Shown here in pieces: positions 9,335-44,900 of a stretch of DNA of 64,000 nucleotides (positions are counted from its first letter, which is position 1; the number at the start of each line of letters is the position of its first letter). Source of the stretch: an uncultured Ellagibacter sp. (lineage in GTDB: Bacteria > Actinomycetota > Coriobacteriia > Coriobacteriales > Eggerthellaceae); assembly GCA_934663775.1 (NCBI GenBank), contig CAKUKU010000002.1, forward strand, positions 62,001-126,000, written 5' to 3'. Position numbers and translations under genes: made by a program. The notes below the pieces were generated by a model. It did not search any database. It was not told the DNA's origin and saw nothing but the letters and a program-made list of their open reading frames with translations.

Positions 9335-10571
9335 CTAGGCGATGTTGCGCTCGTCGAAGTCCTCCATCTCGAGCTCCTCGAAGCTGACGTTGAGCTCCTC
9401 TTCGATCTCGCGGAGCATGCGGTCTTCCTCTTTCTTGCGCTGCTGCTCATCAAGCTCGATCCGAGCTTCCTTCGCGCGCTTCGAGCTGGCTTATCGTCTG
9501 GCACACCACCGTGCAGCTGATCTCGCGGCTGCGGATAACCGAGAGCACGTCGTCGATGTGGGGCAGGCGCAGGTTCGCGAAGTCGTCGAGCACGAAGCGC
9601 ACCGGCACTGGGAGCCGATGGTCGGAGAAATCGCGGTCGGCCGAGCGGCACAGGGAGGAAAACGCCTGCTGGATGAAGAGACTCGTGAGCATGTCGAGGC
9701 TTCGATCCATGTCGTCGATGGTGACGAACAGTGCGCGCTTTTCACGCCCGAAGCTGCTGAAGTCGATCTGCCGGGGATTGTTGTACGACCTGATGACGCC
9801 TTCGAAGCCGAACGGCACGAGGTCGGCCGCGAGGATTCCCAAGATGCTCGCATGCATCTTCTCCGCACCGCACGTGGCCTTCGCGCGGTTGTACAGCGCG
9901 GGCGCATAAGCCCCGGGGTCTTCTTTCTGCAGGTCAGTGAATAGCGGGTCGACCGCCCGAGCGACGGCGAGCTCGAACATGCGGATGACCGACGACATGT
10001 TCTGCGCGTCGTCGGGCAGGGCCTCGAGCACGTAGGCGATATAGGCCGTGAGGTAGTTCGCCGCAGCAAGCGGCCAAAAGGAGTCGCTTGCATGCTCGTC
10101 AACAGGGCAGATGGCCGAAGCGATGGAGATGATGTCCTGCTGCATCGGTCGGCCCTCGCACCAGCGAATGTGGTCGAGCGGGTTGTATCCGATGGTGCCG
10201 TCCATGGCGTTGAAGTCGATGCAGTCGACGATGTAGCCGTTTTCCTCAAGGTATGGGCCCACCTCGTGATAGAGGGAGCCTTTGCAATCGAGCACAATGT
10301 AGGACCCTTGGCATTGCAGCAGGTTCGGCTTGACGTGGTTGCGCGTTTTCCCGCCGCCCGACGACCCGAGCACGAGAACGTTGTTGTTCAGCCCGCTTCG
10401 CCACGTGTCGCAGCTGACGGATCGGTTGGCGGAAAGCAAGGTTTCTCCCTGGTAGGCGCTTCGCTGCGGGTTGCAGGCAGGCGCGCTTCCGGGCTTTGCG
10501 GCGGAGAAAGCTTGCGCGAGCTTGTTGTACGCGGAGCCTTTGGCGATGGTGTTGAATTCGGTGGCTTTCAT
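9335..10571 (-). pseudogene. Broken type IV coupling protein (VirD4/TraG)
   Basis: The first 370 codons read as a conjugative coupling ATPase: Walker A GSSGGGKT (residues 69-76), the following VKPNLLQC...YIVLDCKGSLYHEV, and Walker B RFVLDDFANLRLPHID before VVCQTISQLEAR. The frame then stops at 9450 (EGSSDRA). In a shifted frame, a typical acidic, charged C-terminus (ARIELDEQQRKKEED... ending DERNIA) continues to 9335. About 100 or more residues usual between these parts are missing, so an internal deletion plus frameshift destroyed the gene. It has its own ribosome site (GAGGAG). No relaxase, Tra or integrase gene is nearby, so it is an isolated relic of an integrated conjugative element. Confidence 0.8.
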
Positions 10572-10710
10572 AAACTGCTCCTCAGGTTGAGAGTTGACGG
10601 TGGATGGGAAATGGGCGAGTGAAGAATGGGCGGCGAAGGAGGCGAACGGGTGGCGGCAAGCTTAAGCCTGCCCGCGGTCCAAGCAGGCTCGATGCCCTCG
10701 CACGGCGCCG

Positions 10711-11301
10711 CTACAGCGTGCTTATCACGCGATCGGCAAGGTGCGCCGCCACTGCGTCTTCCGCCTCGAAATAGGTGTCTCGGGCGGTGATCTTGAAGAC
10801 CTGTTCGAGGTCCATTCCCGAATGCTGAGCGATGACCTGCGCTGTTATGTCGCGAATGCGCATCAGGTCGTCGGCGCGCGCCTTCACCGAAAGGGCGCTT
10901 CCGCCCACACCGCCCGAAATGAGCGGATCGTGGACCATCACGCGGCTGTGGGGCAGCATGTCGCGCGTGTCGCCGGCGATGAACAGCAGCGCAGCCATGC
11001 TCGCCGCAAGTCCCAGGCATACGGTGCGAATGGGGCAGCTTGTGGCCTGCATCACATCGTAGAGCGCCAGACCCGAGCTCACCTCGCCACCAGGGCTGTT
11101 AATGAAAAGCGTGATGGGTGCCGTAGGGTCGACCTTTTGCAGATAGAGGATCCCGCGGATGATGACCGCCACCGATTCCGAGTCGACGAGTCCGGAAAGC
11201 TCGAGCTCGCGGGCGGCGAGCATCGCGTCGCGGATGTCGAAACGCTGGATGCCGAGATTAGTTTCCTCAATGATTTGGGGAGGGTAGACCGAAGTGCTCA
11301 T
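10711..11301 (-). CDS. clpP: ClpP-type serine protease subunit
   Basis: A 196-residue ClpP homolog, the proteolytic chamber subunit that works with Clp ATPases. The full triad is visible: Ser101 in GLAASMAALL, His124 in VMVHDPL, Asp175 in ITARDTYF. The handle region and the INSPGGEVSSGLALYD segment are conserved. The start ATG 11301 is preceded by AGAAAGG; the in-frame ATG at 11361 lacks this and would add 20 atypical residues. Sequence is more divergent than housekeeping ClpP (GLAASMAA instead of GQAASMGA), and no Clp ATPase or trigger factor is adjacent. It is probably a second ClpP paralog. Confidence 0.85.
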   Translation of the reverse strand: MSTSVYPPQIIEETNLGIQRFDIRDAMLAARELELSGLVDSESVAVIIRGILYLQKVDPTAPITLFINSPGGEVSSGLALYDVMQATSCPIRTVCLGLAASMAALLFIAGDTRDMLPHSRVMVHDPLISGGVGGSALSVKARADDLMRIRDITAQVIAQHSGMDLEQVFKITARDTYFEAEDAVAAHLADRVISTL

Positions 11302-11417
11302 GCCGTGCCTTTCTTCGAATGGCGCCAAGCGCCGGAGGATTGTTAAGGGCAGAGGATGCAAGGCTCGACGCCAAACGCGCGCTCACCATCATGCGGGTTG
11401 CATGACGGGAAAGAATG

Positions 11418-11943: not shown

Positions 11944-14900
11944 TTAATCCTGTGTCATGCGGCGATAGCGGTCGAAACGACGCAGTGCATCCTCTTTGCT
12001 CCGCTCGAAGAGTCGCTCTGCCTCCTCGGGAAAGGTTTTGGTGAGCGAGGCGTAGCGGTTCTCGCCCGCAACGAACTCTAAGTAGTCCATGGTGGGCGCT
12101 TTGGAGTCCAGAGTCATCGGGTGCTCCTTGCTCGGGTCGTAGCGGTACAGCGCCCAGTAGCCGCTTTCCACCGCGCGCTTCATCTCGCCCTGGACGTCGC
12201 GCATCCCGCACTTCAGACCATGCGAGGTGCAGGGCGCGTAAGCGATGATGACGGAGGGGCCGTCGTATTCCTCGGCCTCCTTGAGCGCCTTGACGAGCTG
12301 GTTGTAGTTGGCGCCCATCGCCACCTGGGCGACATAGACGTTGCCGTAGCTCATAAGGATTGCGCCCAGATCTTTCTTGCCGGTCTTCTTGCCGCTCGCC
12401 GCGAACTGCGCGACGGCGCCCGCGGGCGTGGCCTTCGAGCTCTGGCCGCCGGTGTTGGAGTAGACCTCGGTGTCGACCACGAGCACGTTCACGTTGGCGC
12501 CGCTTGCGACCACGTGGTCGAGCCCGCCAAAGCCGATGTCGTATGCCCAACCGTCGCCGCCGAACATCCAAAACGTCTTCTTAGCCAGCTGATCTTTGAA
12601 CTTGAGGACCTCCTCGCACACCTTCTTGGCGCTGTTGGTGAGCGAACCCGTCGAAGCCTCGATTGCCGCCACGAGCGCATCGGAGGCCGCGCGCGAGGTG
12701 TCGAAGTCGTCGAAAGCGGCGAGATAGGACTCACACGCAGCCTTGACCTTTTCCATGGCGGCGGGCTCGGGTGCGTCGCCTTTGCCTTCCTTCGGGTTCT
12801 CCAGGCTGCACGTGGTCACCTGCGAAAGCTTCTCGACGCGCGCCTTCTCGGCCGCGCGCTGCTGGGTCGATCCAAGATAGAGACCTAACGATAGCTCGGC
12901 GTTGTTCTCGAAAAGGCTGTTGGTCCACGCAGGGCCGAAACCGCGCTTGTTTGTGGTATAGGGGATACCGGGGAAGGGCGCGCCCCAGGCCTGCGAACAA
13001 CCTGTGGCGTTTGCCCAGTACACGCGGTCGCCGAACAGCTGGGTGAGGAGCTTGGCGTAGGGCGTCTCGCCGCAGCCCGCACATGCTGCTGAGAACTCGA
13101 GGAGCGGTTGCTTGAATTGCGAGCCCTTGACCGAGTAGGGATCGAACACGCTGCCCTTGTCGGCAAGCTCCAGGCCGTATTCCCACAGCGTGCGGCTCGC
13201 GTCGGTGAGCTTGGCGGGCTCCATGGAAAGCGCGTCTGCCGGGCACACGTCGGCGCAGCTGCCGCAGCTTGTGCAGTCGAACTGGCTCACCTGAAGGGTG
13301 AAGCGCATGCCGTCGGGCAGGTTCTTGCCGCCCTTGAGCGCGACGGTCTCGAACCCGGCGGGGGCGGTGGCGGCCTCCTCCTCGCTCACCAGGTAGGGGC
13401 GGATCGCGGCGTGGGGGCACACGAAGGCACAGCGGTTGCACTGGATGCAGGCGTCAGCCTTCCACGTGGGTGTCGTGACGGCGATGCCACGCTTCTCGAA
13501 AGCGGTGAGGCCCATGTCGATGACGCCGTCCTCGTAGCCCGCAAACGCGCTCACGGGAAGCTCGTCGCCTTTCTGGGCGTTCACGGGACGCAGGATCCCC
13601 GTCACGACGCAAGGCAGGCCCTCGTCGTTTGCGCATGCGTCAAGCTCGGCGTTTTCCCAGCTCGCAGGGACTGCGACCTCCACGCACCTCTGGGCGCCCT
13701 CCTCGATGGCGGCCACGTTGCTCGCCACAACGGCGTCCCCCTTGCGCGCGTAGGTCTTCCGCGCTGCGTCCTTCATGTAGTCGAGTGCCTCCTCGACTGG
13801 CATGAGCCCTGAAATCTTGAAGAACGCCGCTTGGAGCACCGTGTTGATATGGCTGCCAAGGCCCACGCGCTGCGCGATTTCGACCGCGTCGACGGTGAAC
13901 AGGCGGATGCCGTTGTTTGCGATGTAGCGCTTCATTGCTCCGGGCAGGTTGGCGTCGAGCTCCTCAGGCGTCCAGCCCGTGTTCAAAAGGAACGTGCCGC
14001 CCGGCTTCACCTCCTGCACCATGTCGTACTGGCGCACGTAGCTCTGGTTGTGGCAGGCGACGAAATCGGCGCGCTTCACATAATACGTGCTGCGAATAGG
14101 CTTCTTGGAGAGGCGCAAGTGAGACTTGGTCACGCCAAAGGACTTCTTGGAGTCGTATTCGAAATACGCCTGCGCAAACAGGTCGGCGCAGTCGCCCAAG
14201 ATGCGGATGGTGTTGTGGTTGGCGCCCACCGTGCCGTCGCCGCCTAAGCCCCAGAACTTGCAGCTGTAGGTGTCGGCGTCCTTGAAGCCATCGAGCGGAC
14301 GGACGGGAAGCGACAGGTTGGTCACATCGTCGTTGATTCCGATGGTGAAGCCGCGTTTTGGCTGGTCAGCAGCAAGATTCTCAAACACGGCGACAATCTG
14401 GGCGACATCGGTGTCCTTGGAGGAAAGCCCGTAGCGCCCGCCCACAACGAGCACCTTGCCCGCGCGCTCGCTGTTCGCGATAACGCTCGAGACGTCCAGG
14501 AAGAGCGGCTCGCCGGCCGAGCCCATGCACTTGCAACGGTCGAGCACTGCGATGCGCTCCACGCTTTGGGGCAAGGCACCTAAGAAGTGCTTCGCCGAGA
14601 AGGGACGGTAGAGGTGCACCTGCAAGAAGCCGTAGCGCTTGCCGCTGCCCGCAGCCTGGGCCTTCGCGTTCAAATAGTCGCATGCCTCCTGCGCGGTGCC
14701 CGAAACGCTGCCCATCGCGACCACGACGTCGGTCGCGTCGGGCGCGCCGTAGTAGTCGAACACGTGATGCTCGCGGCCCGTCACGCCGGCGACCTGCGCC
14801 ATGATGCCCTCGACCACGTCGGGCAGCTCGTCGTAGGCGGTGTTGTTCGCCTCGCGCACCTGGAAGTACACGTCGCCGTTCTGCACGGTGGCGCGCAGCA

Positions 14901-15537
14901 TGGGATGCTCGGGGTTTAAGGCGCGCGCCCTGAAGCGATCGAGCGCCTCGGTGTCCATGAGCGCGGTGAGCTCCTTGGTATCGGGCATGTCAATGCGCGA
15001 GAGCTCGTGCGAAGTGCGGAAACCGTCGAAGAAGTGCATGAACGGGACGCTGCCCTTCACGGCGGCGAGGTGCGCAACGGCCGCCATGTCGGCAGCTTCC
15101 TGAACGCTTCCCGAACTGAGCTGCGCAAAGCCGGTGTCGCGGCACGCCATGACGTCGGAATGGTCGCCGAAGATGCTCATGGCGTGCGTGCCCACCGTGC
15201 GGCTCGCCACGTGCAAGACGCCTGGAAGGCGCTCGCCGGCGATGCGGTAGAGCACGGGAACCATGAGCATGAGGCCCTGGCTCGAAGTGAAGCTCGTTCC
15301 CAGGCCGCCCGCCTGCAGCACGCCGTGGATAGCCCCGATAGCGCCCGCCTCGGACTGCATTTCGGTCAGCTGCACGCGCTGGCCGAACATGTTCAGGCGA
15401 CCCTGGGCGCTCCAGCGGTCGGTGTGCTCGGCCATGGGCGAGGACGGCGTGATGGGGTAGATCGCCGCCACCTCGGTGAAGTCGTAGGCGACATGGGCCG
15501 CAGCCTCGTTGCCGTCAACCGTTACGTAGTTGCTCAT
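11944..15537 (-). CDS. nifJ: Pyruvate:ferredoxin (flavodoxin) oxidoreductase
   Basis: A 1197-residue one-chain PFOR that oxidises pyruvate and CoA to acetyl-CoA and CO2, reducing ferredoxin or flavodoxin; central to anaerobic energy metabolism. Domains in order: the N-terminal pyruvate/CoA-binding region (YPITPSSPMAEHTD near residue 28); the two-cluster ferredoxin domain with CIQCNRCAFVCP and CTSCGSCADVCP (about residues 690-770); and the thiamine-diphosphate domain with GDGWAYDIGFGG and VVDTEVYSNTGGQ (about 970-1030). Cys in CAGCGETPY supplies part of the third cluster. GGAGAGGGA precedes the ATG. It is the last gene of a minus-strand cluster, 87 bases after the isomerase/acyl-CoA synthetase fusion, and may be cotranscribed. 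Confidence 0.97.
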   Translation of the reverse strand: MSNYVTVDGNEAAAHVAYDFTEVAAIYPITPSSPMAEHTDRWSAQGRLNMFGQRVQLTEMQSEAGAIGAIHGVLQAGGLGTSFTSSQGLMLMVPVLYRIAGERLPGVLHVASRTVGTHAMSIFGDHSDVMACRDTGFAQLSSGSVQEAADMAAVAHLAAVKGSVPFMHFFDGFRTSHELSRIDMPDTKELTALMDTEALDRFRARALNPEHPMLRATVQNGDVYFQVREANNTAYDELPDVVEGIMAQVAGVTGREHHVFDYYGAPDATDVVVAMGSVSGTAQEACDYLNAKAQAAGSGKRYGFLQVHLYRPFSAKHFLGALPQSVERIAVLDRCKCMGSAGEPLFLDVSSVIANSERAGKVLVVGGRYGLSSKDTDVAQIVAVFENLAADQPKRGFTIGINDDVTNLSLPVRPLDGFKDADTYSCKFWGLGGDGTVGANHNTIRILGDCADLFAQAYFEYDSKKSFGVTKSHLRLSKKPIRSTYYVKRADFVACHNQSYVRQYDMVQEVKPGGTFLLNTGWTPEELDANLPGAMKRYIANNGIRLFTVDAVEIAQRVGLGSHINTVLQAAFFKISGLMPVEEALDYMKDAARKTYARKGDAVVASNVAAIEEGAQRCVEVAVPASWENAELDACANDEGLPCVVTGILRPVNAQKGDELPVSAFAGYEDGVIDMGLTAFEKRGIAVTTPTWKADACIQCNRCAFVCPHAAIRPYLVSEEEAATAPAGFETVALKGGKNLPDGMRFTLQVSQFDCTSCGSCADVCPADALSMEPAKLTDASRTLWEYGLELADKGSVFDPYSVKGSQFKQPLLEFSAACAGCGETPYAKLLTQLFGDRVYWANATGCSQAWGAPFPGIPYTTNKRGFGPAWTNSLFENNAELSLGLYLGSTQQRAAEKARVEKLSQVTTCSLENPKEGKGDAPEPAAMEKVKAACESYLAAFDDFDTSRAASDALVAAIEASTGSLTNSAKKVCEEVLKFKDQLAKKTFWMFGGDGWAYDIGFGGLDHVVASGANVNVLVVDTEVYSNTGGQSSKATPAGAVAQFAASGKKTGKKDLGAILMSYGNVYVAQVAMGANYNQLVKALKEAEEYDGPSVIIAYAPCTSHGLKCGMRDVQGEMKRAVESGYWALYRYDPSKEHPMTLDSKAPTMDYLEFVAGENRYASLTKTFPEEAERLFERSKEDALRRFDRYRRMTQD

Positions 15538-15624
15538 CTTTTAGTCCCTCTCCCCGGCAATGGTGCCAAACGCAAGCGGGGGCGCGCATGACGGCCCCCG
15601 CAAAACGGTCGTTCTCGATACAGG

Positions 15625-18117
15625 TTACTTCTTCACGACGTCCTGAAGCCCCAGTTCCTCAACGGCGGCTTCCCTCATCTTGTACTTGAGGATCTTGCCG
15701 GCGGCGTTCATGGGGAAGGAGTCCACGAACTTGATGTAGCGAGGCACCTTGTGCCGCGCGATGTTGCTCATCATGAACTCGCGGATCTCGGCCTCGGTCA
15801 TGGACTCGCCCTCCATGAGGATGATGCAGGCCATGGCCTCCTCGCCGTACTTCTTGTCGGGCACGCCCACGACCTGGCAGTCGCTCACCTTGGGATGAGT
15901 GATGACGAAGTCCTCGATTTCCTTGGGGTAGATGTTCTCGCCGCCGCGGATGATCATGTCCTTCAGGCGGCCGGTTGCCACGAAGCAGCCGCGATCGTCG
16001 CGCATGAGCAGATCGCCGGAATGCAGCCAGCCGTCCTCGTCCACCGTCTTGAAGGTGGCGTCGGGCATCTTGTAGTAGCCCTTCATGATGTTGTAGCCGC
16101 GCGAGCAGAATTCCCCGACCTCGCCGTTGGGCAGCTCCTCGCCGGTCTCCGGGTCGATGATCTTGCACTGGACGTGCGGGAACGCGTAGCCGACGGTCTC
16201 CGTGCGCAGGTCGAGCGGGTCGGTCCAGGCGCTCATCGTGGAACCCGGGGCCGATTCGGTCTGGCCGTAGACCGACACGATGCCGGTCATGTTCATCTCG
16301 TCGGGCTGGGCGGCGCGCTTCATGAGCTCGGGCGGGCAGCCGGCTCCGGCCATGATGCCCGTGCGCATGTGGCTGAAGTCGGTCTTGCGGTAGTCCTCGT
16401 GGTTGAACATCGCGATGAACATCGTGGGGACGCCGTTGAAGGCGGTAATCTTCTCCTGCGTGATGCAGTGCAGCGACGCTTTGGCGCTGAAGTAGGGCAT
16501 CGGGCACAAGGTCGCGCCGTGCGTCATGGACGAGGTCATCGACAGGGTCATGCCGAAGCAGTGGAACATGGGCACGTGGATCATGAAGCGGTCTGCGGTG
16601 GACAGGCCCATGCGGTCGCCGATGCACTTGCCGTCGTTCACGACGTTGCGGTGCGTGAGCATGACGCCCTTGGGGAATCCCGTGGTGCCGGAGGTGTACT
16701 GCATGTTGCAGACGTCGTCGGGGCGAACGTCGGCGGCCATGCGCTGAATCTTCTCCAACGGCACGAGCTCGGCGCGCTCCATGGCCTCATCGAAGGTGAG
16801 GCAGCCGGGCATCTCAAAGCCGACGGTCACGACGTTGCGTAGGAAGGGAAGCTTCTTGCAGTGCAGCTGCTCGCCGGGCTTGGTCTCGGCGATCTCGGGG
16901 CACAGCTCGTTGATGATCTGGCGGTAGTTGGAATCCAGAGCGCTCTCGACCATGACAAGCGTGTGCGTGTCGGACTGGCGCAGCAGGTACTCGGCCTCGT
17001 GGATCTTGTAGGCGGTGTTCACCGTGACGAGCACAGCGCCGATCTTGGTGGCCGCCCAGAAGGTGATGTACCACGCGGGCACATTGGTGGCCCAGATGGC
17101 GACCTTACTGCCGGCCTTCACGCCCATGGAGACGAGCGCGCGAGCGAACGTGTCGACGTCGTCTCGGAACTCCTCGTAGGTGCGCGTGTAATCGAGCGTC
17201 GTGTACTTAAAACAGTACTGGTCGGGGAAGCATTCGACCATCTTGTCGAGCACTTGCGGGAAGGTCAAGTCGATGAGCTCGTCTTTCTTCCACACGTACT
17301 CGCCCGTGCCGTCGTGGTTGAGGTAGAGCGTGCGGCGCTTGCCGCGGGTGTCCTCAAACTGTTCCATGTAGTTCACAAAGTGCGGGAAGATGACCTCCAT
17401 GTCGGTGAGGTCGGGCATCCATGCAGGGTCCCACTCCAGCGACACGTAGCCGTCGTAGTCGATGGAGGACAGGGCGCGCACGACCTCGTCGATGGGCAGG
17501 GTTCCCTCGCCGACCAGGTTGAAGCTGCCGTCGTCGTCGGAATCGCGCATGTGCACGTGCTTGATGTAGGCGCCTAAGTTCTTGACCGTCTGCGCGGGGG
17601 TCTCGCCGCCTGTGCGGTAGACGTTGTGGACATCCCACAAGGTGCCCAAATAGTCGCTCGCGTAGCGGTCCATGATGCCCGCCATGCGCGTGGTGCTGGA
17701 GAAGATGCCGCTCGACTCGATCAGCAAGACGACGTCGCTGGCTTCCGCGTAGGGCACGAGCTCGGCCAGGGCGGCATGGATAGCGTCCTCATCATCGTTT
17801 TGCGCCACGACGACGACCCGCTCGACGCCGGCGGCGGCAGCGAGGTCGATGAGGTCTTTGGCGGCCTGGATTCGCTCTTCGCCCGCCGAGATGTCGACGG
17901 AAGAATCGAGCGCGGGGATGCATAAGCCCTTGTCGCGCAACGTGCGGGCGGTAGCCTGGGTGTTGTAGCGCTCAAGCGGGCCACCCTTGCCGGTGAAGAC
18001 GGCGTTGATGATGGGGTTGTGGATCTCGATGCCGGAGAAATCCATCTCGAGCGCGGTGTTCACCAACTCGTCCCAGGAGTGGTCGGCCCAGCCGCGGGTG
18101 GAAAAGGAAAGCTTCAT
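15625..18117 (-). CDS. Fusion: xylose-isomerase-like TIM barrel plus AMP-forming acyl-CoA synthetase
   Basis: An 830-residue two-domain protein. Residues 1-265 resemble sugar phosphate isomerase/epimerase (IolE/xylose-isomerase-like) proteins with metal ligands in place: Glu134 (LLIESSG), Asp162/His164 (WDVHN), His187/189 (HVHMRDS), Glu228 (SLEWDP). Residues 280-830 are an ANL-family ligase: A3 loop YTSGTTGFPKG (474-484), A5 YGQTE, A7 HSGD, A8 GRLKDMIIRGGENIYPKEIE, and the C-terminal lysine in AAGKILK. The ligase half should activate a carboxylic acid to its CoA thioester; the barrel half should isomerise, epimerise or dehydrate a polar substrate. The start overlaps the upstream stop (TAATG), implying translational coupling. 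Substrates unknown; both halves look catalytically intact. Confidence 0.85.
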   Translation of the reverse strand: MKLSFSTRGWADHSWDELVNTALEMDFSGIEIHNPIINAVFTGKGGPLERYNTQATARTLRDKGLCIPALDSSVDISAGEERIQAAKDLIDLAAAAGVERVVVVAQNDDEDAIHAALAELVPYAEASDVVLLIESSGIFSSTTRMAGIMDRYASDYLGTLWDVHNVYRTGGETPAQTVKNLGAYIKHVHMRDSDDDGSFNLVGEGTLPIDEVVRALSSIDYDGYVSLEWDPAWMPDLTDMEVIFPHFVNYMEQFEDTRGKRRTLYLNHDGTGEYVWKKDELIDLTFPQVLDKMVECFPDQYCFKYTTLDYTRTYEEFRDDVDTFARALVSMGVKAGSKVAIWATNVPAWYITFWAATKIGAVLVTVNTAYKIHEAEYLLRQSDTHTLVMVESALDSNYRQIINELCPEIAETKPGEQLHCKKLPFLRNVVTVGFEMPGCLTFDEAMERAELVPLEKIQRMAADVRPDDVCNMQYTSGTTGFPKGVMLTHRNVVNDGKCIGDRMGLSTADRFMIHVPMFHCFGMTLSMTSSMTHGATLCPMPYFSAKASLHCITQEKITAFNGVPTMFIAMFNHEDYRKTDFSHMRTGIMAGAGCPPELMKRAAQPDEMNMTGIVSVYGQTESAPGSTMSAWTDPLDLRTETVGYAFPHVQCKIIDPETGEELPNGEVGEFCSRGYNIMKGYYKMPDATFKTVDEDGWLHSGDLLMRDDRGCFVATGRLKDMIIRGGENIYPKEIEDFVITHPKVSDCQVVGVPDKKYGEEAMACIILMEGESMTEAEIREFMMSNIARHKVPRYIKFVDSFPMNAAGKILKYKMREAAVEELGLQDVVKK

Positions 18118-19532
18118 TAGTTCTGCTCCTCGTAAGCGATCTTGTTGAGCGCGTTGATGTAAGCGCGGATGCTGGACTCCACGATGTCGGTGGAGATGCC
18201 GCGACCGGAATAGACCCTGCCGTCGGCGATGAGCTTCACGATGGACTCGCCCATAGCCTCGCGGCCCTCGGTGACCGCCTGGATGCGGAAGTCGTCGAGC
18301 TCGTAGTGTGTGCCCACAACCGACTCGATGGACTTGAAGGAGGAGTCGATGGGGCCATCGCCCAAGGAAACCGCCTCGATGACCTCGCCGTTCTTGCGCA
18401 GGGAGATGTGGGAGGTCGCTTTGAAGCTCAGACCGGCGTTGATGACGTAGCCCTCAAGGATATAGGTGGGGGGCACCTGCAGGGCGGCGGATGCCACGAT
18501 GGCGTCAAGCTCGGTCGCGCCCACGCGCTCCTTATTGGCGGCGATCTTCTTGAATGCCTCGAACACCGCGGCGGCGTCCTCGTCGGAGAGGCTGTAGCCC
18601 AACCGCTCGACATACTGCATGACGGTGTCCTGGTCGTCGCCGGCGGTAAGCACGATTCCCTCGACCGCTTCGGAAACGGAGCCGGTGAACTGGGCCGCCT
18701 TGGAGCGGTCCTCGCAGCACAGGCGCGCGATCTGGTTCATGGCGCGCTTGAGCTCGGTCACGCGGACGTGGCACTGGGCGTCCAGAGCGTCGGACTTCGC
18801 CGCGAGGATTCTCGCCACATTGTCGAGCGCGACGACGCCCATGGGGTAGGACGTCGCCTTGACCAGGGAAGCGCCTGCCATGACGCCCGCAACAGCGCAA
18901 GCGTCTGCCATGTTGAGGTTGTTGCAGCACGAAATACCCAGCTCGATTTCAGCAAGTTGGGGAGCGGCCTTTAGGAGGTCGCCGATGAACTGGGCGAACT
19001 CCTCGGGCAGCATGGAGCCCGCGGCGTCGCACACGGTCACCCTCTTGGCGCCGGCGCGGGTGACGGCCTCGATGACCTTCGCCAGATAGGCAACATCGGT
19101 GCGGGTGGCGTCGATGGCCACGAACTCGACGTCGTCGGTGAGAGCGGCGCACTTGGCAACGGCTGCGGCGGCGTCGTCGATGAGCGCGTCGGCCTTCTTG
19201 CACTGGATGTACTCCATGCACGAGGGGCTCACCGCAGCCTCGACCTGCAGGCGGACATGCTGCGCGCCCTTCGCGGCGCTCCAAACCGCCTCGATGCTCT
19301 CATCGTCCATCTTCACCGGCACGGCGAGCGTGCTGTTCTTCACGAGGGAGGCGATCGACTTGATTCGCAGGCCGTCCACCTTTGAGGACTCGATGCCCTC
19401 GACCTCGATGGCGGCGACGCCGATACGGTCGAGTATCTTCACGATTTCAAGCTTTTCCTTGAAGGATAGGGAAAGCGCCTTCGAGGCAGCTGCTTCCCTC
19501 ATCGTGATGTCACTGACGCGTATGTCTCTCAT
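18117..19532 (-). CDS. 2-isopropylmalate/citramalate-synthase-like protein with lost metal ligands
   Basis: 471 residues with the full layout of LeuA/CimA: an HMGL-like barrel (about 1-270), a linker, and the LeuA allosteric domain (about 355-471, with GDGPIDSSFKSI and GISTDIVESSIRAYINALN). The catalytic signatures are changed. DITMREAAA (8-16) stands where DTTLRDGEQ is usual; the metal-binding HxHND is SCCNN (201-205); the GERAGN motif is absent (SYPMGVVALDN). Ordinary Claisen condensation of acetyl-CoA with a 2-oxoacid is therefore doubtful. The protein could be regulatory, use another mechanism, or bind a ligand. AGGAG lies 6 bases before the ATG. It is the first gene of the cluster and overlaps the fusion gene by one base. 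Confidence 0.8.
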   Translation of the reverse strand: MRDIRVSDITMREAAASKALSLSFKEKLEIVKILDRIGVAAIEVEGIESSKVDGLRIKSIASLVKNSTLAVPVKMDDESIEAVWSAAKGAQHVRLQVEAAVSPSCMEYIQCKKADALIDDAAAAVAKCAALTDDVEFVAIDATRTDVAYLAKVIEAVTRAGAKRVTVCDAAGSMLPEEFAQFIGDLLKAAPQLAEIELGISCCNNLNMADACAVAGVMAGASLVKATSYPMGVVALDNVARILAAKSDALDAQCHVRVTELKRAMNQIARLCCEDRSKAAQFTGSVSEAVEGIVLTAGDDQDTVMQYVERLGYSLSDEDAAAVFEAFKKIAANKERVGATELDAIVASAALQVPPTYILEGYVINAGLSFKATSHISLRKNGEVIEAVSLGDGPIDSSFKSIESVVGTHYELDDFRIQAVTEGREAMGESIVKLIADGRVYSGRGISTDIVESSIRAYINALNKIAYEEQN

Positions 19533-19620
19533 GTACGACTCCTGACTTATACCAATCGTTCCCTAGAAGGTGCCTGCGGCAATCCCAACCGATGTGCTTG
19601 CGGGCAGTCAAACACCTACC

Positions 19621-19630
19621 TTAGCGCTAA
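19621..19630. promoter_or_regulatory. Perfect palindrome TTAGCGCTAA upstream of the LeuA-like gene
   Basis: A 10-bp perfect palindrome, followed by GCATTAACGC, in the 273-base divergent region between the LeuA-like gene (minus) and the lipoprotein gene (plus). It may be an operator; no regulator is assigned. Confidence 0.3.
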
Positions 19631-19805
19631 AGTTTGCATTAACGCACCTCATGCGCAAGCAAGCGGTAAAAACTACTGATTTTTGCGGTAAACGCCGATT
19701 CGTCACACGTCGAGACGAATCGCTGCTACGATATCCTTGAGCAGTTCGGGAGGCGCGCGTAAAGGCGGGGAAGTCGAGGGGCATTTCGCAAGACGAGGGG
19801 GCAAG

Positions 19806-20345
19806 ATGAGAAAGCTCATGGCGGCGTTGCTGGTTGCGGGCCTGTTCGGAGCCCTTGCCCTTGCGGGGTGTTTCTCGGGTGGCGAGGCCAAAAACGAAAG
19901 CTGCGAAGTCACGAGAATCGTCCTTGTGCACACTGGCGGGGACGTGAACACGCTCGATGCTTACGTGTTCGAGCCCGAGCCGTCTCTCACGCATGTTTTT
20001 CTTGCGCCGGACACCGATCTCTCCCATGTGGGGGAAGAATTCCCCTGGCCTGAGGAGGCAGAACTCAGCAGGGAGCGACTGTCCATCTCGAAGACCGACT
20101 GGCAAGGCGTCGTCGGCGTCATCGGCGAGGTCGACTTCATGGACCTTCCCGAAGTGATCAAGGTTTCGGATCAGGTGCTCGACGCGCCGTCTTACTACAT
20201 CAACGTCAAGACGACCAAAGGCTCCCACGAGTCGGGAGGATACGCCGCCGGGTTCGGCTCGGACGACCCCAACGAGCGTTTCGACAAGCTGCACGAAGCC
20301 CTGAATGACGTCATCGCGAAAAGTACCCTGGAAGGCGTAGCGTAG
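19806..20345 (+). CDS. Small predicted lipoprotein
   Basis: A 179-residue exported protein with a classic lipoprotein signal: MRK, a hydrophobic core, then the lipobox LALAGC with the acylated Cys at residue 22. The mature part is acidic and soluble, without recognised domain. It should be anchored to the outer face of the cytoplasmic membrane. GAGGGGG precedes ATG 19806; an in-frame ATG at 19737 would bury the signal peptide and is rejected. It stands alone, divergent from the LeuA-like cluster. Function unknown. Confidence 0.75.
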   Translation: MRKLMAALLVAGLFGALALAGCFSGGEAKNESCEVTRIVLVHTGGDVNTLDAYVFEPEPSLTHVFLAPDTDLSHVGEEFPWPEEAELSRERLSISKTDWQGVVGVIGEVDFMDLPEVIKVSDQVLDAPSYYINVKTTKGSHESGGYAAGFGSDDPNERFDKLHEALNDVIAKSTLEGVA

Positions 20346-20413
20346 CGTAGCGAGAAGGAACGATCGTGGCCTTCCTTTGGCGGAAAGAGAGCATCTCGCA
20401 TTGGTTGAGCGCT

Positions 20414-20489
20414 CGCAAGCTTGCGGACGGCATTTCCTCTTTGCGCTGCCTTCGCGGTGAGACGCGCATGCAGGGGTAGAGGGAAATGC
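20414..20489. repeat. Palindromes in intergenic region
   Basis: A perfect 12-bp palindrome CGCAAGCTTGCG (20414-20425) is followed by an inverted repeat GCATTTCCTCT (20430-20440) / AGAGGGAAATGC (20478-20489) with one extra base. It may be a terminator for one of the flanking converging genes or a decayed intergenic element; there is no T-tract. Confidence 0.35.
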
Positions 20490-20541
20490 GCGGCGACCAG
20501 GCGCTGGTGCGCGAGCTTGGCTGTCGATTCGCAAGTTGGCG

Positions 20542-20964
20542 TTATCCCGTGTATGCATTTTCCTTGCTGCAGCTGAAGTCATGGGTCGCAAGATACGCCT
20601 CGTCTTCGGCGCTCTCCGGAACATCGATGCGCTCGATCTTGAACACGACGGGGCGGGTTCCGTCGTTGCAACAAGCGATCATGACGCGCTCGTCGTTAAT
20701 CCAATTCTTCATGATGGCGCCGCCTGCAAGCGCCGTGTAGATGTAGCGGCTGATGGCGTCCCAGGCCTCCGCGCAGGGGAACGGCGGGTTGAGTTCTCGC
20801 CCGAAGTGATAGAAGTCGTCCTTCCCCGGCTCGCGCTCGAACAGGTATTCCTGTCCCACCTCAAAGCAGGGGCAGGGACCGCTTTCGGGGTCTGCGAGAT
20901 ATTCCTTCTGGAGGTCCGGGAACAGTTTCTTGTCGATGACCGTCACTTTGCACTTGTGCTTCAA
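20542..20964 (-). CDS. TIGR04076 family protein
   Basis: A 140-residue protein matching the TIGR04076 family as I remember it: start KCKVTVIDKKLFPDLQKEY, a Cys-rich middle (SGPCPCFEVGQEY), a CAEAWDAISRYIY segment and a final Cys-containing strand (IACCNDG). The family is common in anaerobes; its function is not established. The start is TTG 20964, supported by AGGAAAGG 6 bases upstream; no ATG fits. It lies 135 bases downstream of the macrodomain gene in the same direction and could be part of that operon. Confidence 0.75.
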   Translation of the reverse strand: MKHKCKVTVIDKKLFPDLQKEYLADPESGPCPCFEVGQEYLFEREPGKDDFYHFGRELNPPFPCAEAWDAISRYIYTALAGGAIMKNWINDERVMIACCNDGTRPVVFKIERIDVPESAEDEAYLATHDFSCSKENAYTG

Positions 20965-21099: not shown

Positions 21100-21888
21100 T
21101 CATGCAATCCCGAGGATTTTCCGATAGAGCGCCTCGTCTCGATCGTCGAAGACATTGAAGACGATATCCATGTCCGACTCGCGTTCTTCGAGCCACTCGC
21201 GCACTGTTCGAATGGCGATTCCCGCTGCCTCTTCCTGCGGAAAACCGAAAATGCCGGTTGAGATGCAGCAGAAGGCGATTGATCGCAGGCTGTACTTTGC
21301 GGCGAGGTCCAGGCAGCTTCGGTAACACGATGCGAGCTGCTCGCGATGCGAGTCTGCGGGATATCCATTCGCGATGGGCCCGACGGTGTGGATGACGTGC
21401 CTGGCGGGCAAGTTGAAGGCGGGCGTGATCTTCGCCGCGCCGGTCGGCTCCTCATGGCCCTGCGCGTCCATGAGGCGGGCGCACTCGGCGCGCAGCTGAA
21501 CCCCAGCGAATGTGTGAATGGCGTTGTCGATGCAGTGGTGGCCGGGCACCCAGCAACCGAGGAGCTGGCTGTTCGCGGCGTTCACGATGGCATCGACGGC
21601 AAGTGTGCTGATGTCGCCGCGCCAGAGACGAAGGCGTGGGTTGCTTGGCGATGGTGCGGCATCGTCGAGCGTGCTGATGCCGGCATCTGCGATTATCCTC
21701 TGCAGCAGCTCGTCTTGCATCGAGAGCCATCCGGTAGCGGCGGGAGTCGGCGGTCGCGTGTTCACGAGCGCGCGAAATGCGCCCCACAGCTCATCGGCGT
21801 CTTCTGTTTCCGGCGGATCGAGAGCCCGCTCGCTGCAAAGGTCGGCAACAAGAGCTCTCAGCAGCTTCGTCTTCCTAGCGATGTCCAT
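21100..21888 (-). CDS. Zinc-containing macrodomain, protein ADP-ribosyl hydrolase
   Basis: A 262-residue macrodomain protein of the type paired with SirTM sirtuins. The ADP-ribose-binding core is RLWRGDISTLAVDAIVNAANS (Asp92, Asn103, Asn106). A Zn-binding signature follows: GCWVPGHHCIDNAIH (Cys112, His117 or His118, Cys119), matching the GCxxPxHxCIDNxIH motif of zinc macrodomains. The late glycine-rich loop CISTGIFGFP is present. By family it removes ADP-ribose placed on target proteins by the neighbouring sirtuin. The gene begins inside the last 14 bases of the sirtuin gene, with GGAG 6 bases before its ATG, so the two are translationally linked. Confidence 0.92.
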   Translation of the reverse strand: MDIARKTKLLRALVADLCSERALDPPETEDADELWGAFRALVNTRPPTPAATGWLSMQDELLQRIIADAGISTLDDAAPSPSNPRLRLWRGDISTLAVDAIVNAANSQLLGCWVPGHHCIDNAIHTFAGVQLRAECARLMDAQGHEEPTGAAKITPAFNLPARHVIHTVGPIANGYPADSHREQLASCYRSCLDLAAKYSLRSIAFCCISTGIFGFPQEEAAGIAIRTVREWLEERESDMDIVFNVFDDRDEALYRKILGIA

Positions 21889-22750
21889 CTTGTTCTCCCG
21901 TAAGGTCGCTCAAGACCTGGTCGATGTCTGCATCGACGAGCACCGAGCGCTCGCTGATGTCGGGGTGGGTATACGCCTCGCCGAGGTTGACGCACGCGTA
22001 GGTTGACTCAGGGTTTGCGTACGTGCGGCGCCAGAACGGGTACTTGATTATGACGGGTGTGTTTGCGCCCACACCGAGTTCCAGGTAGAGTACCTTGCCG
22101 TTCTGGTTCGCTTCCAGGAATTCGCGGTAGCGCTCGGCGGCGCTTCGCCAGCCGGCATCCTCGACGAACGTTGCGTCGGCGCGCAGATTCATGGACAGGG
22201 GCTTGCCGCAGCGCGGGCAAAAGGGCACGAGCTCTGTCGGAACGCGCATGTCGTGCTGCTCTTCAACCATACGTTTCACCACATCGTAGTTGTCGTACGT
22301 CTTGTCGTGGCACGGCACGCTGCACTGCCACAGGCCGTAGTCGCCCTGCGTGTAGAACAGGCGCTTCTTGGGAAAGCCCGCCATCTGGAACTGATGGTCC
22401 ACGTTGGTGGTGACGACGAAGAAATCCTTCCCCTCCAGCAGACGCAGCAGTTTGCCGTAGGTGTCTTTCGGGGGATTCACGTAGCGGTTGTACCAAATGT
22501 GGCGGCTCCAGTAGGCCCAGCGCTCCTCTTTTGTGGGGAAGGGGAAAAATCCTGCGGAGTACATGTCGCACAAGCCGTACTTCTCGATGAAATCGCCGAA
22601 GTAACGCTTGAATCGCTCGCCTGAGTACGTCAACCCGGCGGCAGTTGAGATCCCGGCGCCCGCGCCGACCACGATGGCGTCGGCCGTGTCGATTGCGCCT
22701 TTGAGCTTGGCTATCGCTTGCAGGTATCCTTTTGTTTCCATGGCGTCCAT
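21875..22750 (-). CDS. SirTM-class sirtuin, protein ADP-ribosyltransferase
   Basis: A 291-residue sirtuin of the class M type. The NAD pocket shows GAGIS (31-35) and TTNVDHQFQMAGF (114-126). At the catalytic His-Gly position the protein has Gln135-Gly136 (FYTQGDYGLWQC), the hallmark replacement of SirTM enzymes, which ADP-ribosylate rather than deacetylate. Structural zinc ligands are Cys143, Cys147, Cys178 and Cys181 (FCPRCGKPL). Start ATG 22750 is 1 base after the ferredoxin stop; ATG 22741 with GGA upstream is an alternative. The linked GcvH-like and lipoate-ligase genes of some SirTM operons are absent here, so the modified target is unknown. Confidence 0.9.
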   Translation of the reverse strand: MDAMETKGYLQAIAKLKGAIDTADAIVVGAGAGISTAAGLTYSGERFKRYFGDFIEKYGLCDMYSAGFFPFPTKEERWAYWSRHIWYNRYVNPPKDTYGKLLRLLEGKDFFVVTTNVDHQFQMAGFPKKRLFYTQGDYGLWQCSVPCHDKTYDNYDVVKRMVEEQHDMRVPTELVPFCPRCGKPLSMNLRADATFVEDAGWRSAAERYREFLEANQNGKVLYLELGVGANTPVIIKYPFWRRTYANPESTYACVNLGEAYTHPDISERSVLVDADIDQVLSDLTGEQDGHR

Positions 22751-22751
22751 C

Positions 22752-23012
22752 CTATAGTTTCGCAATCGCCTGGACAGGGCAGGCTTCCTGGCATATGCCG
22801 CAGCGCAGGCAGTGGGACTGGTCGATGACGGAGGGGCTGCCGGGCGTGATGCACAGTTCAGGGCATTTCTCGGCGCAGATGCCGCAACCGATGCAGCTAT
22901 CTTCGATAAGGAACGCTCGCGCATTCGCCTCGGCGCCACCCAAGGTAAACGATTTGCGGAAGATCGGTCGCTGCCCCAGATCGAAATACTCGCCTTCAAT
23001 GCAGATGGACAT
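22752..23012 (-). CDS. Short 2[4Fe-4S] ferredoxin-like protein, possibly truncated
   Basis: 86 residues from ATG 23012 (alternatives ATG 23024, 23033). Two clusters are present: CIGCGICAEKCP and CLRCGICQEACP. The stretch before them (EGEYFDLGQRPIFRKSFTLGG) resembles the linker of longer flavin-binding split-barrel proteins that end in a ferredoxin domain. No split-barrel sequence remains upstream, because the frame is closed at about 23080. It is either a solo ferredoxin derived by loss of that domain, or a broken gene still read through into the sirtuin, one base downstream. A TGAGG site 6 bases before ATG 23012 supports translation. Confidence 0.7.
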   Translation of the reverse strand: MSICIEGEYFDLGQRPIFRKSFTLGGAEANARAFLIEDSCIGCGICAEKCPELCITPGSPSVIDQSHCLRCGICQEACPVQAIAKL

Positions 23013-41962: not shown

Positions 41963-44900
41963 GTGAAGAAGGCCCCCGTCTCTGACATCGCCCTGCGCGT
42001 GTTTTTGTCCCTTGCGCTCGTCGTATCGTTCATCCCCATCGCCCGCGATGCGTCGTATGCCGCGGAGGATTACGCTGCGTCCATCGAGGCCGTGAATGCC
42101 GATGCCTCGACCGGGGGCGACGCCGACCCCTTCGAAGCTGATACCGCTGGTGGTGAAGGCGATTCGGCTGCAGGCGCCTACTCCGCGTTCGAGGGCGATT
42201 CCGATTCTGATTCCGCAGGCGGAAAAACGGACGCCGACAAGGCTCAGCCTGACGATTCCGGTGATGCGGACGCATCCGATGGCTCAACAGCCCTGGGCGT
42301 ACCGGACGGTGCCGCGCAAGCTCGTCCCATATGCGAATACGGCAAGCTTATGCCAGACGGCTCCGTGTACGAATGCGACGAATCGGGCAATCTCAAGGAG
42401 TCAATCGACGAGTTGGATTCCAAATCGCATTCTGTTAACCCATGGGAAGTCAAGAGCCTTATCGTCGATTCTCAAACGACTTCGATTCCCGAGAGGTTGT
42501 GCTACAGCTCTACCTATCTTCAGTCTGTGCGGTTTGAGAGTAAGGCCCTCGAATCTATTGGCGAGTATGCTTTCTTCGATTGCGAGAACTTTTCGTCGAT
42601 AAGCCTATCGGGTATGCATATCGAATCTATCGACAGGGACGCTTTTTCTTATTGCGAGAAGCTGACTAGCCTTACTATCGAAGAAACTGCAACCATTGAG
42701 TCAATCGGTTCCAATTGCTTTTACGGAAGCGGTCTTGTCTCGACGGGCTTGGACCATGTGGAGGGATTGAAGAGTATCCCCGTCGGCGCATATCAGGAGT
42801 GCCACGACCTCGTCGACACCGGTCTTGCCGGAAATCGCTCGGTTGAATCTGTCGGGGACTCCGCTTTCGAGCATTGTTATGGCCTCGTCGACACCGGTTT
42901 TGGGACGAATACGCATGTTACGTCCGTCGGTGAGTATGCTTTCATGAGGTGCGAAAAGCTGAGCCAAACGGGACTTGCGACAAATACCCGAATCGCCTCC
43001 ATTGGCGCCTACGCGTTCTTGGGCTGCAAGAACCTTCGTCTTTCGGGGCTTGAAACCAACACAACCGTTTCGAGTTTGGGGGAGCACTGCTTCGAAGAAG
43101 CTGACATGAGCGGCGGGCTTGTTTTGCCGCGTGACTCTAAGATCACCATGCTTCCGAAATGCGCGTTCGCCAAAACCAAGCTCAGCTTCGTGTACTTCCA
43201 GTGCGACCATGCGGTGCTTGTCGATTCCCAGACGTTCCCGAATGGCTTTATAAAAGTTCTCGTTCCCGCACGTTCGCTCGATTTGTATCAAGATAGCGAA
43301 GTCAAGCGTGATTGGAAAGCATGCAATTACGACTTGCCCTACGATGCTTCAAGCTATCTGTCTATCAGCGTCGTAAGCGATCCAAGCAAGCTTGTGTACC
43401 AAAAAGGGGACGCTGTTTCCCTTAGCGGCATGCAAGTGAAGTTCAACTATGATGGTACGCAGCACACTTTCGACTACGCCGACCTTGCGAGCAATTATGC
43501 GTTCAGCCAATTCTTCTCCTTCAGCCCCGATAACGGGTCGACCTTCCAGGCTTCCGACAACGGCGCTCCCGTGCGCGTAACCTACAACGACGGCGACCAT
43601 CTTCGTAGTGCCTATTCATCAGGCCTTTTGCAAGAAGAGGGGAGCGCGGCGCTTTCCGTGTACGTGGAGAGTCCGACCGCCCAGCTGGGGGAAGCGGCGA
43701 CGGGCGGCGGCCAGTTTGCTTCGGGCGCTACGTGCACGGTGAGCGCCGAAACGACGCTCGACGGCAGGCTTTTCGCTTATTGGGCCGATGAGAAGGGTAA
43801 CGTTCTTTCCGAGAAGGAAACGTACGAGTTTTCCGTCGAGCGCTCCATCGTGCTCACTGCCGTGTTCGCCGACGAGATCGTGGTTTCCCCGAAGGCGCGG
43901 CTCAATCTCGCGAATGGGAGCGAAGTCGAAAACGTGACGTTCTCTATCGTTGCCGACAATTGCAATTACGGAGAGACGTTCGCCACCTATCCCGGCAAGG
44001 TGGTGACGATCACGTGCAACTACGATTCCTCGAAATGGTCAATCGATCATTGGGCCTATTCGGATGGCGCTTACTTGATCGTCGGGAGCGAGAACTCCGC
44101 GACCGTTTCGTATACCGTGGAGGGAAAGGGCGATCCCGTTGCTATCCTCAGGGAAAAGGAGCAGCCTGACCCCGACCCCGGCAAGCCTATCGACCCGGTA
44201 GTTGCGGTGCATGTCGATTACTCGCAGACGATCGACTTAGGCGGGAGAGCGCTTATGGAGGGCGTTGAGGTTCCGAACGTTTCGGGCTCGAGGTTCCTCT
44301 TCGCTGGTCAGCTCGTCGCGCTCGACGCCGAACGGCTCGGCATGCTCGATGACGACATCGAGTTCGTGGGCTGGTATGACAAGGAAACGGGCGTGTGCTT
44401 GAGCGAGCGGCGCGTGTGCCTGTTCAAGCCGGAGATGAATATGAGCGTCGAGGCGCGCTTCGCCTTGAAGGATGTCGCCGTGCACGTAAATCCGGCGAAG
44501 TCGACCGACGCCTCCGAGAGCTATGCCCACGTGACGCCCACCATAACCAACTGCTACCGCAGCCCGGGCGAGACCGTCGCGCTCGACGCCACCGCCGACA
44601 ACGCGCAGTTCCGCGGCTGGTACGAGGGCGAAGGCGACGCCACGACCCTGATTAGCGACAGCTTGACCTGCGATTATACGGTTCCTAACTTCGATGGGCA
44701 AACGCAGGTCGAAATCACCCCCTGGTACTGCGCCACGCAGGCGAGCGTCGTGCTCTCCGTCGACGGCACCACCGAGGACGGAAGCCCGCAGGGTTCCTTC
44801 GTCACCACGGGGCTCTACGGCATAGGATCGCACGTCACCGTCGTCGCGATTCCCGCTCCCTATTACGTGCTCGACTACGTCACCGATGCGGCGGGCAACA

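Follow-up and report, generated by a model that had tools for sequence, protein, structure and literature searches.

Across bacterial genomes, a gene for a LeuA-like protein stands directly before a gene that fuses an isomerase-like barrel to an AMP-forming acyl-CoA ligase, and a PFOR paralog joins the pair in part of the loci. The favored reading, with a probability of roughly 0.55, is that these genes form a leucine-controlled module for the salvage of branched acids in gut and rumen bacteria. The genes were met in a stretch of 64,000 nucleotides from an uncultured Ellagibacter sp., called the window throughout.

A recurring gene pair with a variable third member

The sequence-only reading had placed a LeuA-like protein, the fusion, and a PFOR in a row on the minus strand, and all three open reading frames are present (Table 1). 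As it had also described, the first two overlap by one base, with base 18117 common to both, and the PFOR gene starts 87 bases past the fusion stop. Pfam assigns HMGL-like and LeuA_dimer domains to the LeuA-like protein; AP_endonuc_2, AMP-binding, and AMP-binding_C to the fusion; and the full PFOR set to the third gene. Upstream of 19532 (19400–20700 scanned), no Rfam match to an RNA leader such as a riboswitch or T-box appears up to E 1, and promoter and terminator scans at the window module yield about the same as shuffles.

Table 1. Features of the module in the window
Feature	Position	Strand	Basis or remark
LeuA-like protein, 471 aa	18117..19532	−	ORF, Pfam, NCBIfam; candidate leucine-sensing pseudoenzyme
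HMGL-like TIM barrel, LeuA-like residues 4–263	18744..19523	−	Without RD...HxH metal site
LeuA_dimer allosteric domain, LeuA-like residues 339–471	18120..18518	−	PF08502, 98.5 bits; kept better than barrel
Fusion, 830 aa: isomerase-like barrel and AMP-forming acyl-CoA ligase	15625..18117	−	Candidate isovalerate (branched acid) CoA ligase
Xylose-isomerase-like TIM barrel, fusion residues ~1–260	17338..18117	−	Window copy: E134, D162, H189, E228 all present
AMP-forming acyl-CoA ligase, fusion residues ~280–825	15643..17280	−	PF00501/PF13193; TSGTTGFPKG, YGQTE, GR.KD, K808 invariant
NifJ-type PFOR paralog, module-linked clade, 1197 aa	11944..15537	−	TIGR02176, 1632 bits; tree and identity
PFOR codons 849–850, Gln-Ala vs Ser-Ile in housekeeping PFORs	12988..12993	−	Pocket change
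TAATG stop/start overlap of LeuA-like gene and fusion gene	18115..18119	−	Sequence

The proposal that the genes form a conserved module, to be checked by their adjacency across genomes, is borne out for the first two. Of 128 fetched loci, 127 have the fusion directly after the LeuA-like gene and the last is cut by a contig end; together they hold 118 distinct LeuA-like sequences (compared over the last 120 aligned residues). Among the 80 loci found with the fusion, 79 have the two genes in this order on the same strand, with 2–169 bases between aligned ends; the exception lies at a contig edge. When loci are fetched via the LeuA-like protein, the fusion adjoins in 48 of 48 (6/6, 20/20, and 22/22), six of the last 22 being places already among the first 80. 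Loci were fetched from 20 of the 64 carriers in a 295-genome set (G019, identical to L065, and G008, identical to L038, were already in the first 80), and another carrier set contributed six of its seven genomes, the seventh being L065. Such adjacency is far beyond chance, and its restriction to one strain is rejected by the recurrence of the pair across all locus sets. A conserved TAATG overlap is also rejected: an aligned-end distance of 2 bases occurs in 19 of 79 loci, only two of which have TAATG.

PFOR is the variable member. Of the 80 loci, 22 have it less than 300 bp downstream of the pair and 25 carry it on the same contig; where at least 3.6 kb of downstream sequence is available, it is directly downstream in 18 of 61. 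In one genome (G485) the LeuA-like protein is 97% alike to that of the window; no linked PFOR is seen on its contig, which ends inside the fusion.

Catalytic sites of the LeuA-like protein and the fusion

The sequence-only reading assigned 2-oxoacid condensation to the LeuA-like protein, and this is not borne out. The protein was aligned in 97 full-length copies, window included, after removal of two whose tblastn stretch contains a stop, hits shorter than 400 aa or less than 33% identical, and the true isopropylmalate synthase of locus L006. Each of the two metal histidines of the HxH motif is kept in 0 of 97 copies, the Asp of the RD motif is kept in two, and the HSSGIHQDG segment (HCS_D2 region) is gapped in all. 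We take these motifs to be metal-ligand or active-site elements of isopropylmalate synthase. At the metal-ligand positions the window protein has Glu13, Ser201, and Cys203, and it lacks PF22617, which is present in the true synthase of L006. The first Asp of DTTLRD is kept in 97 of 97 copies and the Thr in 92. With both metal histidines and HSSGIHQDG lost throughout, activity of the LeuA-like protein as an isopropylmalate synthase is rejected, and with the metal site absent, so are citramalate and homocitrate synthase. The protein falls below the cut-off of all 18 NCBIfam families matched, the best reaching 276.6 bits against 532, and median barrel identity to a true isopropylmalate synthase is 25.7%.

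What the protein does share with LeuA is the LeuA_dimer allosteric domain, for which the window copy far exceeds the Pfam cut-off of 24.9 bits. In 19 distant copies, median identity to the window protein is 57% in this domain and 31% in the barrel. The C-terminal domain is 33–45% identical to frames of ~480–630 aa that also match the barrel, presumed to be true isopropylmalate synthases, vs mostly 23–35% to other synthase-like frames. From these patterns, the LeuA-like protein is probably a dead isopropylmalate synthase that now serves as a leucine sensor.

The ligase half of the fusion appears intact, its motifs TSGTTGFPKG, YGQTE, and GR.KD and its catalytic Lys being invariant in 22 of 22 fusions. 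Its best NCBIfam matches (25 of 112) reach no cut-off; PRK12583, at 662 bits against 832, leaves the substrate unfixed. The isomerase step of the sequence-only reading is doubtful. All four residues that are presumably xylose-isomerase-like metal ligands (E134, D162, H189, and E228) are kept in the window copy and in no fewer than 12 of the 104 fusions, but 72 of them carry Lys at position 134, and at least nine have three of the four ligands changed. This set includes the window and leaves out three fusions whose tblastn stretch is interrupted by a stop, those under 400 aa, and those under 33% identity. With the metal site altered in most of them, the isomerase as a fixed catalytic step is in doubt. 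The predicted structure of the fusion has a mean pLDDT of 71.8 overall and is poor in the ligase part; the fold matches listed for it cover residues 1 to ~260.

Oxidoreductases and leucine genes of the carriers

The window PFOR passes TIGR02176 with 1631.8 bits against a cut-off of 911.35. In a tree rooted at its midpoint and shown without support values, it and 24 other linked PFORs (61–69% identical to it) form a group separate from the 25 non-linked PFORs that carrier genomes also hold (50–55%). Also counted as linked are L016 and L028, with an aminotransferase gene in between, L035 and L084, with PFOR 5.3 kb and ~1 kb away, and row L124, which is the linked PFOR of L051; L097 was dropped for a stop, as were fragments shorter than 900 aa, duplicates, and second records that were nearly identical. 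For the pyruvate-specific PFOR of Desulfovibrio africanus (DaPFOR), five positions are named as methyl-pocket residues (PMC5020499). In DaPFOR numbering, Ile843 is Ala in 25 of 25 linked vs 0 of 25 other PFORs (Ala850 in the window), Leu121 is Met in 22 of 25 vs 0 of 24 (Met120), and Ala219 is Val in 25 of 25 vs 0 of 24, the others having Ala (13) or His (11) (Val218). Asn996 is kept (Asn1028), so the window enzyme departs at three of four compared positions, Met1202 being left out.

The linked PFORs thus resemble NifJ-type PFOR in full-length TIGR02176 and in the carboxylate-binding Thr31 and Arg114, and differ in their separate clade, in these pocket exchanges, and in the second PFOR usually found in the same genome. 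In G446, the nearest genome, a 94% PFOR copy lies beside the pair and a 56% copy elsewhere. That the linked PFOR is just the usual housekeeping enzyme, placed downstream by accident, is unlikely given the separate clade and the second PFOR of G446. The counter-example is G114, where no second NifJ-type PFOR was found, so its linked copy may act as the housekeeping PFOR.

Elsewhere a different oxidoreductase accompanies the pair. Genes for ketoisovalerate oxidoreductase (VOR) occur on 30 of 80 contigs and PFOR on 25, with both on one, making the two almost mutually exclusive as neighbors. Seven loci (L008, L039, L059, L065, L074, L076, and L078) hold one gene run of MbcS-like ligase(s), a small ParA-like protein, VorB, VorA, VorC, a branched-chain aminotransferase, the LeuA-like protein, and the fusion, as identified from one representative of each family. 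Of the 80 loci, 34 have MbcS-like HTH-cupin ligases beside the module; the one scanned reaches 428 bits against a cut-off of 850. VOR, PFOR, and MbcS are all missing from the fetched stretch at 22 of the 80 loci, of which seven extend 9.6 kb or more to either side. At the level of genomes, VOR or a module-linked PFOR is found in 30 of 30 carriers examined (24 picked from the 80 for long flanks and six from the other carrier set): 22 have VorB over the cut-off, and the remaining eight all have the linked PFOR. This gene content supports the earlier proposal of an acyl-CoA ligase coupled to a 2-oxoacid:ferredoxin oxidoreductase.

Carriers also tend to lack genes of the usual branched-chain pathway. 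The comparison covers 295 genomes of a single order, mostly MAGs whose completeness is not stated, and its statistics ignore relatedness among carriers. LeuB is found in 4 of 64 carriers vs 162 of 231 non-carriers (Fisher p 1.9e-21), IlvC in 7 vs 134 (p 4e-12), and VorB in 55 vs 123 (p 1.2e-6). Two of these searches used E 1e-90 and E 1e-110, and each adds one genome below the family cut-off. In 12 VOR-adjacent genomes, neither IlvC nor LeuB is found over the cut-off. The pattern in 12 PFOR-linked genomes fits a gap that is mainly leucine-specific, since nine have IlvC but only four have LeuB. Six of the 30 carriers hold both LeuB and IlvC, so the module is more than a replacement only.

Proposed branched-acid salvage and competing explanations

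In the proposed pathway, the ligase domain of the fusion would activate a short branched acid released by other microbes, most likely isovalerate, and with ATP and CoA form isovaleryl-CoA. The remodeled PFOR paralog in the window, or VOR in other lineages, would reductively carboxylate the acyl-CoA to 4-methyl-2-oxopentanoate, which a branched-chain aminotransferase would turn into leucine. The allosteric domain of the LeuA-like protein would sense leucine, or a close relative, and exert feedback control over the fusion, probably by binding it. We infer the substrate, the direction, leucine as the ligand, and the complex of the two proteins from the patterns above. The oxidoreductase then more likely consumes the acyl-CoA as its substrate than has it feed PFOR-linked oxidation, probably the reverse of the sequence-only reading. 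The role of the isomerase barrel falls outside this explanation, and against it stand the naming of NifJ-type PFORs for pyruvate, the retention of Thr31 and Arg114, the loci with no VOR, PFOR, or MbcS nearby, and the carriers that hold both LeuB and IlvC. A stricter version, held tentatively and at somewhat under even odds, is that a dead isopropylmalate synthase has been kept across gut bacteria labeled as three phyla as a leucine-sensing subunit exerting feedback control on a dedicated isovalerate-CoA ligase fused to an isomerase-like barrel, and that, with a duplicated PFOR remodeled to a 4-methyl-2-oxopentanoate synthase, it makes up an alternative route to leucine that is complete and has allosteric control of its own.

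The pathway could also run the other way, with branched-chain amino acids deaminated, PFOR or VOR oxidizing the 2-oxoacids to acyl-CoA, the ligase working backwards to free the acid and gain ATP, and leucine as activator. VOR and the aminotransferase are reversible, and amino-acid fermenters that cannot make amino acids would equally be without LeuB and IlvC. This direction is nevertheless unlikely, although no single point decides it: the fusion and the scanned MbcS-like neighbor are of the AMP-forming, acid-activating type; no kinase or phosphotransacylase occurs among the recurrent neighbor clusters scanned, a non-exhaustive set; and the better-kept part of the LeuA-like protein is LeuA_dimer, a domain known for biosynthetic feedback.

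Carboxylation may instead serve another acid, such as propionate (giving 2-oxobutyrate, for isoleucine), acetate (giving pyruvate), 2-methylbutyrate, isobutyrate, or an aromatic acid, and the ligand would be another amino acid. Among solved structures the PFOR is nearest to pyruvate enzymes, and the PRK12583 match does not settle the ligase substrate. The C-terminal domain, however, is closest to presumed true isopropylmalate synthases, the housekeeping pocket Ile is replaced in every linked PFOR, and carriers are mostly without LeuB, all of which makes a different acid rather improbable. Least credible, with only a slim chance, is a new chemistry near the earlier proposal, in which the LeuA-like protein would catalyze a condensation and the isomerase barrel an isomerization, followed by CoA activation. 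The four metal ligands of the window barrel and the well-kept DTTLRD residues speak for it, but no copy retains the metal histidines of the HMGL barrel, and most fusions have an altered isomerase site while the ligase motifs are invariant.

Salvage of isovalerate has a precedent. Leucine formation by its carboxylation in the rumen is documented in the accessible part of PMC7356843, citing Allison 1962 and 1966. This route of rumen anaerobes to leucine, valine, and isoleucine (Allison and colleagues, 1962–1971) needs an acyl-CoA ligase, a 2-oxoacid:ferredoxin oxidoreductase, and an aminotransferase, and genes of these types surround the module; as given in that part of the source, the route comes with no gene named, no LeuA-like sensor, and no fused ligase. 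According to the accessible text of PMC10026030, MbcS (methylbutyryl-CoA synthetase) of Staphylococcus aureus, an AMP-forming ligase for short branched acids, accepts 2-methylbutyrate and isobutyrate but hardly isovalerate, which leaves isovalerate for another ligase. MbcS-like ligases are neighbors of the module; the fusion itself differs from MbcS, being nearest another ANL subfamily and bearing the isomerase barrel. No description of the LeuA-like/fusion/PFOR set was found in the literature searched, which covers few subscription journals, in agreement with the earlier remark that no described pathway has this combination.

If the salvage reading is true, isovalerate carboxylation, known since rumen studies in the 1960s, would gain candidate genes, an enzyme pair, and a control mechanism. 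A possible leucine source for the many LeuB-less bacteria of gut and rumen would be accounted for, as would the need of some of them for branched volatile acids. The findings bear on annotation too. In Slackia heliotrinireducens, a 63% relative of the LeuA-like protein is named 2-isopropylmalate synthase; proteins so named in such genomes may be non-catalytic, and metabolic models that trust the name would wrongly predict the normal pathway.

The conserved pair and its variable neighbors

The three minus-strand genes described in the sequence-only reading are present as ORFs at their positions, along with the TAATG overlap of the first two and the 87-base gap before the third; the overlap is not a general trait of the pair. 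The closest genome found, G446, has the same gene order on a single contig (LeuA-like 97%, PFOR 94%) and comes from the family of G006 (genome of locus L026, Adlercreutzia sp. ZJ304), presumably Eggerthellaceae, where the LeuA-like gene occurs in 22 of 119 genomes.

With the fusion as query, at least 590 stretches of genome contigs were found to encode a relative, possibly including relatives of the ligase alone. The best 80, at 70–78% identity, were retained; the records behind them, many of ruminant origin, carry labels such as Coriobacteria, Clostridia, and Bacteroidales. The LeuA-like gene lies directly upstream in 79 of these loci, and the remaining locus is cut by the contig start. With the LeuA-like protein as query, the fusion is next in 6/6, 20/20 (LeuA-like identity 35–54%), and 22/22 loci (six already among the earlier ones). 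In both query directions together, the fusion follows the LeuA-like gene in 127 of 128 loci, which hold 118 distinct LeuA-like sequences, and because of this adjacency the pair is the core of the module. The suggested three-gene adjacency extends beyond this strain, with PFOR as its variable part: it is directly downstream in 22 of the 80 loci and somewhere on the contig in 25.

Genes of ketoisovalerate oxidoreductase (VOR) are on 30 of the 80 contigs, together with PFOR on one only (locus L016), and 22 loci are without VOR, PFOR, or a ligase like methylbutyryl-CoA synthetase (MbcS) on the fetched stretch. Among the 30 examined genomes with the LeuA-like gene (carriers), VorB is over cut-off in 22, and all other eight have a PFOR of the module-linked clade (linked PFOR). 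The VOR-type neighbors are co-directional and lead into the pair in L008, L039, L059, L065, L074, L076, and L078; elsewhere they are divergent or downstream of it. Relatives of the MbcS-like ligase are present twice on 27 of the 80 contigs; the scanned protein is a regulator-like part fused to a ligase. Between this ligase and VorB, many loci encode a small ParA-like protein, for which Pfam gives only weak ParA/CbiA matches, none over cut-off, and whose few named relatives are annotated as hypothetical. In the family of G006, PFORs 72–94% identical to that of the window occur in 6 of the 22 carriers, beside the pair in G446, G437, G467, and G460 and on a separate contig in G500 and G517. No PFOR of the window type was found in G485 (LeuA-like 97%), whose contig stops inside the fusion.

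Features of the module, of VOR-type loci, and of the surrounding window
Feature	Position	Strand	Description
LeuA-like gene	window 18117–19532	−	Pfam HMGL-like, LeuA_dimer
Fusion gene	window 15625–18117	−	Pfam AP_endonuc_2, AMP-binding, AMP-binding_C
Third gene	window 11944–15537	−	Pfam complete PFOR
VorB	VOR-type loci		representative 551 bits, cut-off 399
VorA, VorC	VOR-type loci		one representative each scanned
Branched-chain aminotransferase	VOR-type loci		representative 500 bits, cut-off 307
HTH-cupin ligases, one or two	VOR-type loci		nearest MbcS; representative 428 bits, below cut-off 850
MbcS-like CoA ligase	L060:5569–7860 and equivalents		N-terminal HTH and cupin
ParA-like protein	L013:1811–2512 and equivalents		234 aa
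Region of Macro-domain protein and upstream ORF	window 21100–22999	−	PF01661, 138 bits
Region of TraG/VirD4-like coupling-protein ORF and ClpP-like gene	window 9450–11361	−	coupling protein 373 aa; PF02534 match reaches position 352 of 468
Giant ORF	window 41963–51079	+	3038 aa

A candidate route to leucine

Isovalerate carboxylation is an old, documented route, and PMC7356843 describes rumen bacteria obtaining leucine through it. Targeted literature searches found no description of the gene set itself (dead synthase as proposed sensor, barrel-ligase fusion, remodelled PFOR). According to PMC10026030, the substrates of S. aureus MbcS are 2-methylbutyrate and isobutyrate, with hardly any activation of isovalerate. 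Given this preference and the rumen route, the MbcS-like ligases of VOR-type loci could supply valine and isoleucine, with leucine possibly served by the fusion and the leucine-type sensor coupled to it; in window-type loci the dedicated PFOR would carry out the carboxylation. We give the whole leucine-salvage model, whose every enzymatic step we infer, a probability of roughly 55%.

Across 295 genomes from the order of G019 (genome of L065), LeuB is found in 4/64 carriers versus 162/231 non-carriers, IlvC in 7/64 versus 134/231, and VorB in 55/64 versus 123/231, mostly in metagenome-assembled genomes of unstated completeness and in counts that ignore shared ancestry. In a smaller sample, the family of G019, LeuB is over cut-off in 0/7 carriers versus 73/112 others; it is so in six of the 30 individually studied carriers. 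None of the 12 VOR-adjacent genomes has LeuB or IlvC. Nine of the 12 PFOR-linked genomes have IlvC and only four LeuB (in a fifth, G021, the match of 265 bits is below cut-off), which suggests that these carriers often make valine and isoleucine by the usual route and lack mainly the leucine branch. Amino-acid-fermenting auxotrophs would be expected to have the same LeuB/IlvC pattern. That the module runs in the reverse, catabolic direction is considered unlikely, and that its substrate is another acid, slightly less likely still. The limited spread of the TAATG overlap and the cases of G114 and G485 shift these estimates too little to alter them.

The linked PFOR and the fusion protein

Eleven of the 12 genomes with a linked PFOR have a second PFOR elsewhere, in pieces in three (G004, G014, G017); G114 is the sole exception. 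In the Eggerthellaceae sample a second copy is also present in G446, G437, G500, and G460, and in pieces in G467 and G517. VOR-adjacent genomes have one NifJ-type PFOR apiece, some in pieces. In a tree, the window PFOR and 24 linked PFORs separate from 25 further PFORs found in carriers, and three alignment columns split the groups 25 to 25. As the structure paper PMC5020499 describes, the pocket round the pyruvate methyl group comprises Leu121, Ala219, Ile843, Asn996, and Met1202, and in a related enzyme specificity is influenced by the counterpart of Ile843. In one splitting column, which corresponds to Ile843 of D. africanus PFOR (numbering checked against 7plm), the linked group has Ala instead of Ile. 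The linked clade also has Met at Leu121 (22/25) and Val at Ala219 (25/25; Ala 13 and His 11 in the other group), and keeps Asn996, Thr31, and Arg114. Owing to the substitutions at Ile843, Leu121, and Ala219, an altered acyl pocket is likely.

The fusion barrel resembles Art22, AsbF, UlaE, and IolI in fold matches, and all four metal ligands are present in the window protein. Lys occupies metal position 134 in 72 of 104 fusions, and at least nine of the 104 have three of the four ligands altered. Because these ligands vary while the ligase motifs are invariant in an alignment of 22 fusions (22/22), barrel catalysis is unlikely as the common trait of the family, which would instead be the predicted ligase.

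Other genes of the window

The Macro-domain gene overlaps the last part of the ORF that lies upstream of it, which we take to be sirtuin-like by sequence and which has no Pfam match over threshold; a macrodomain–sirtuin pair is possible. The TraG/VirD4-like ORF adjoins the module, with a ClpP-like protease gene (PF00574) upstream of it, and may be left over from an integrated conjugative element or mark the edge of one. The giant ORF contains BspA-type leucine-rich repeats and MBG domains along with 11 divergent InlB B-repeat stretches; its product is probably a very large surface protein.
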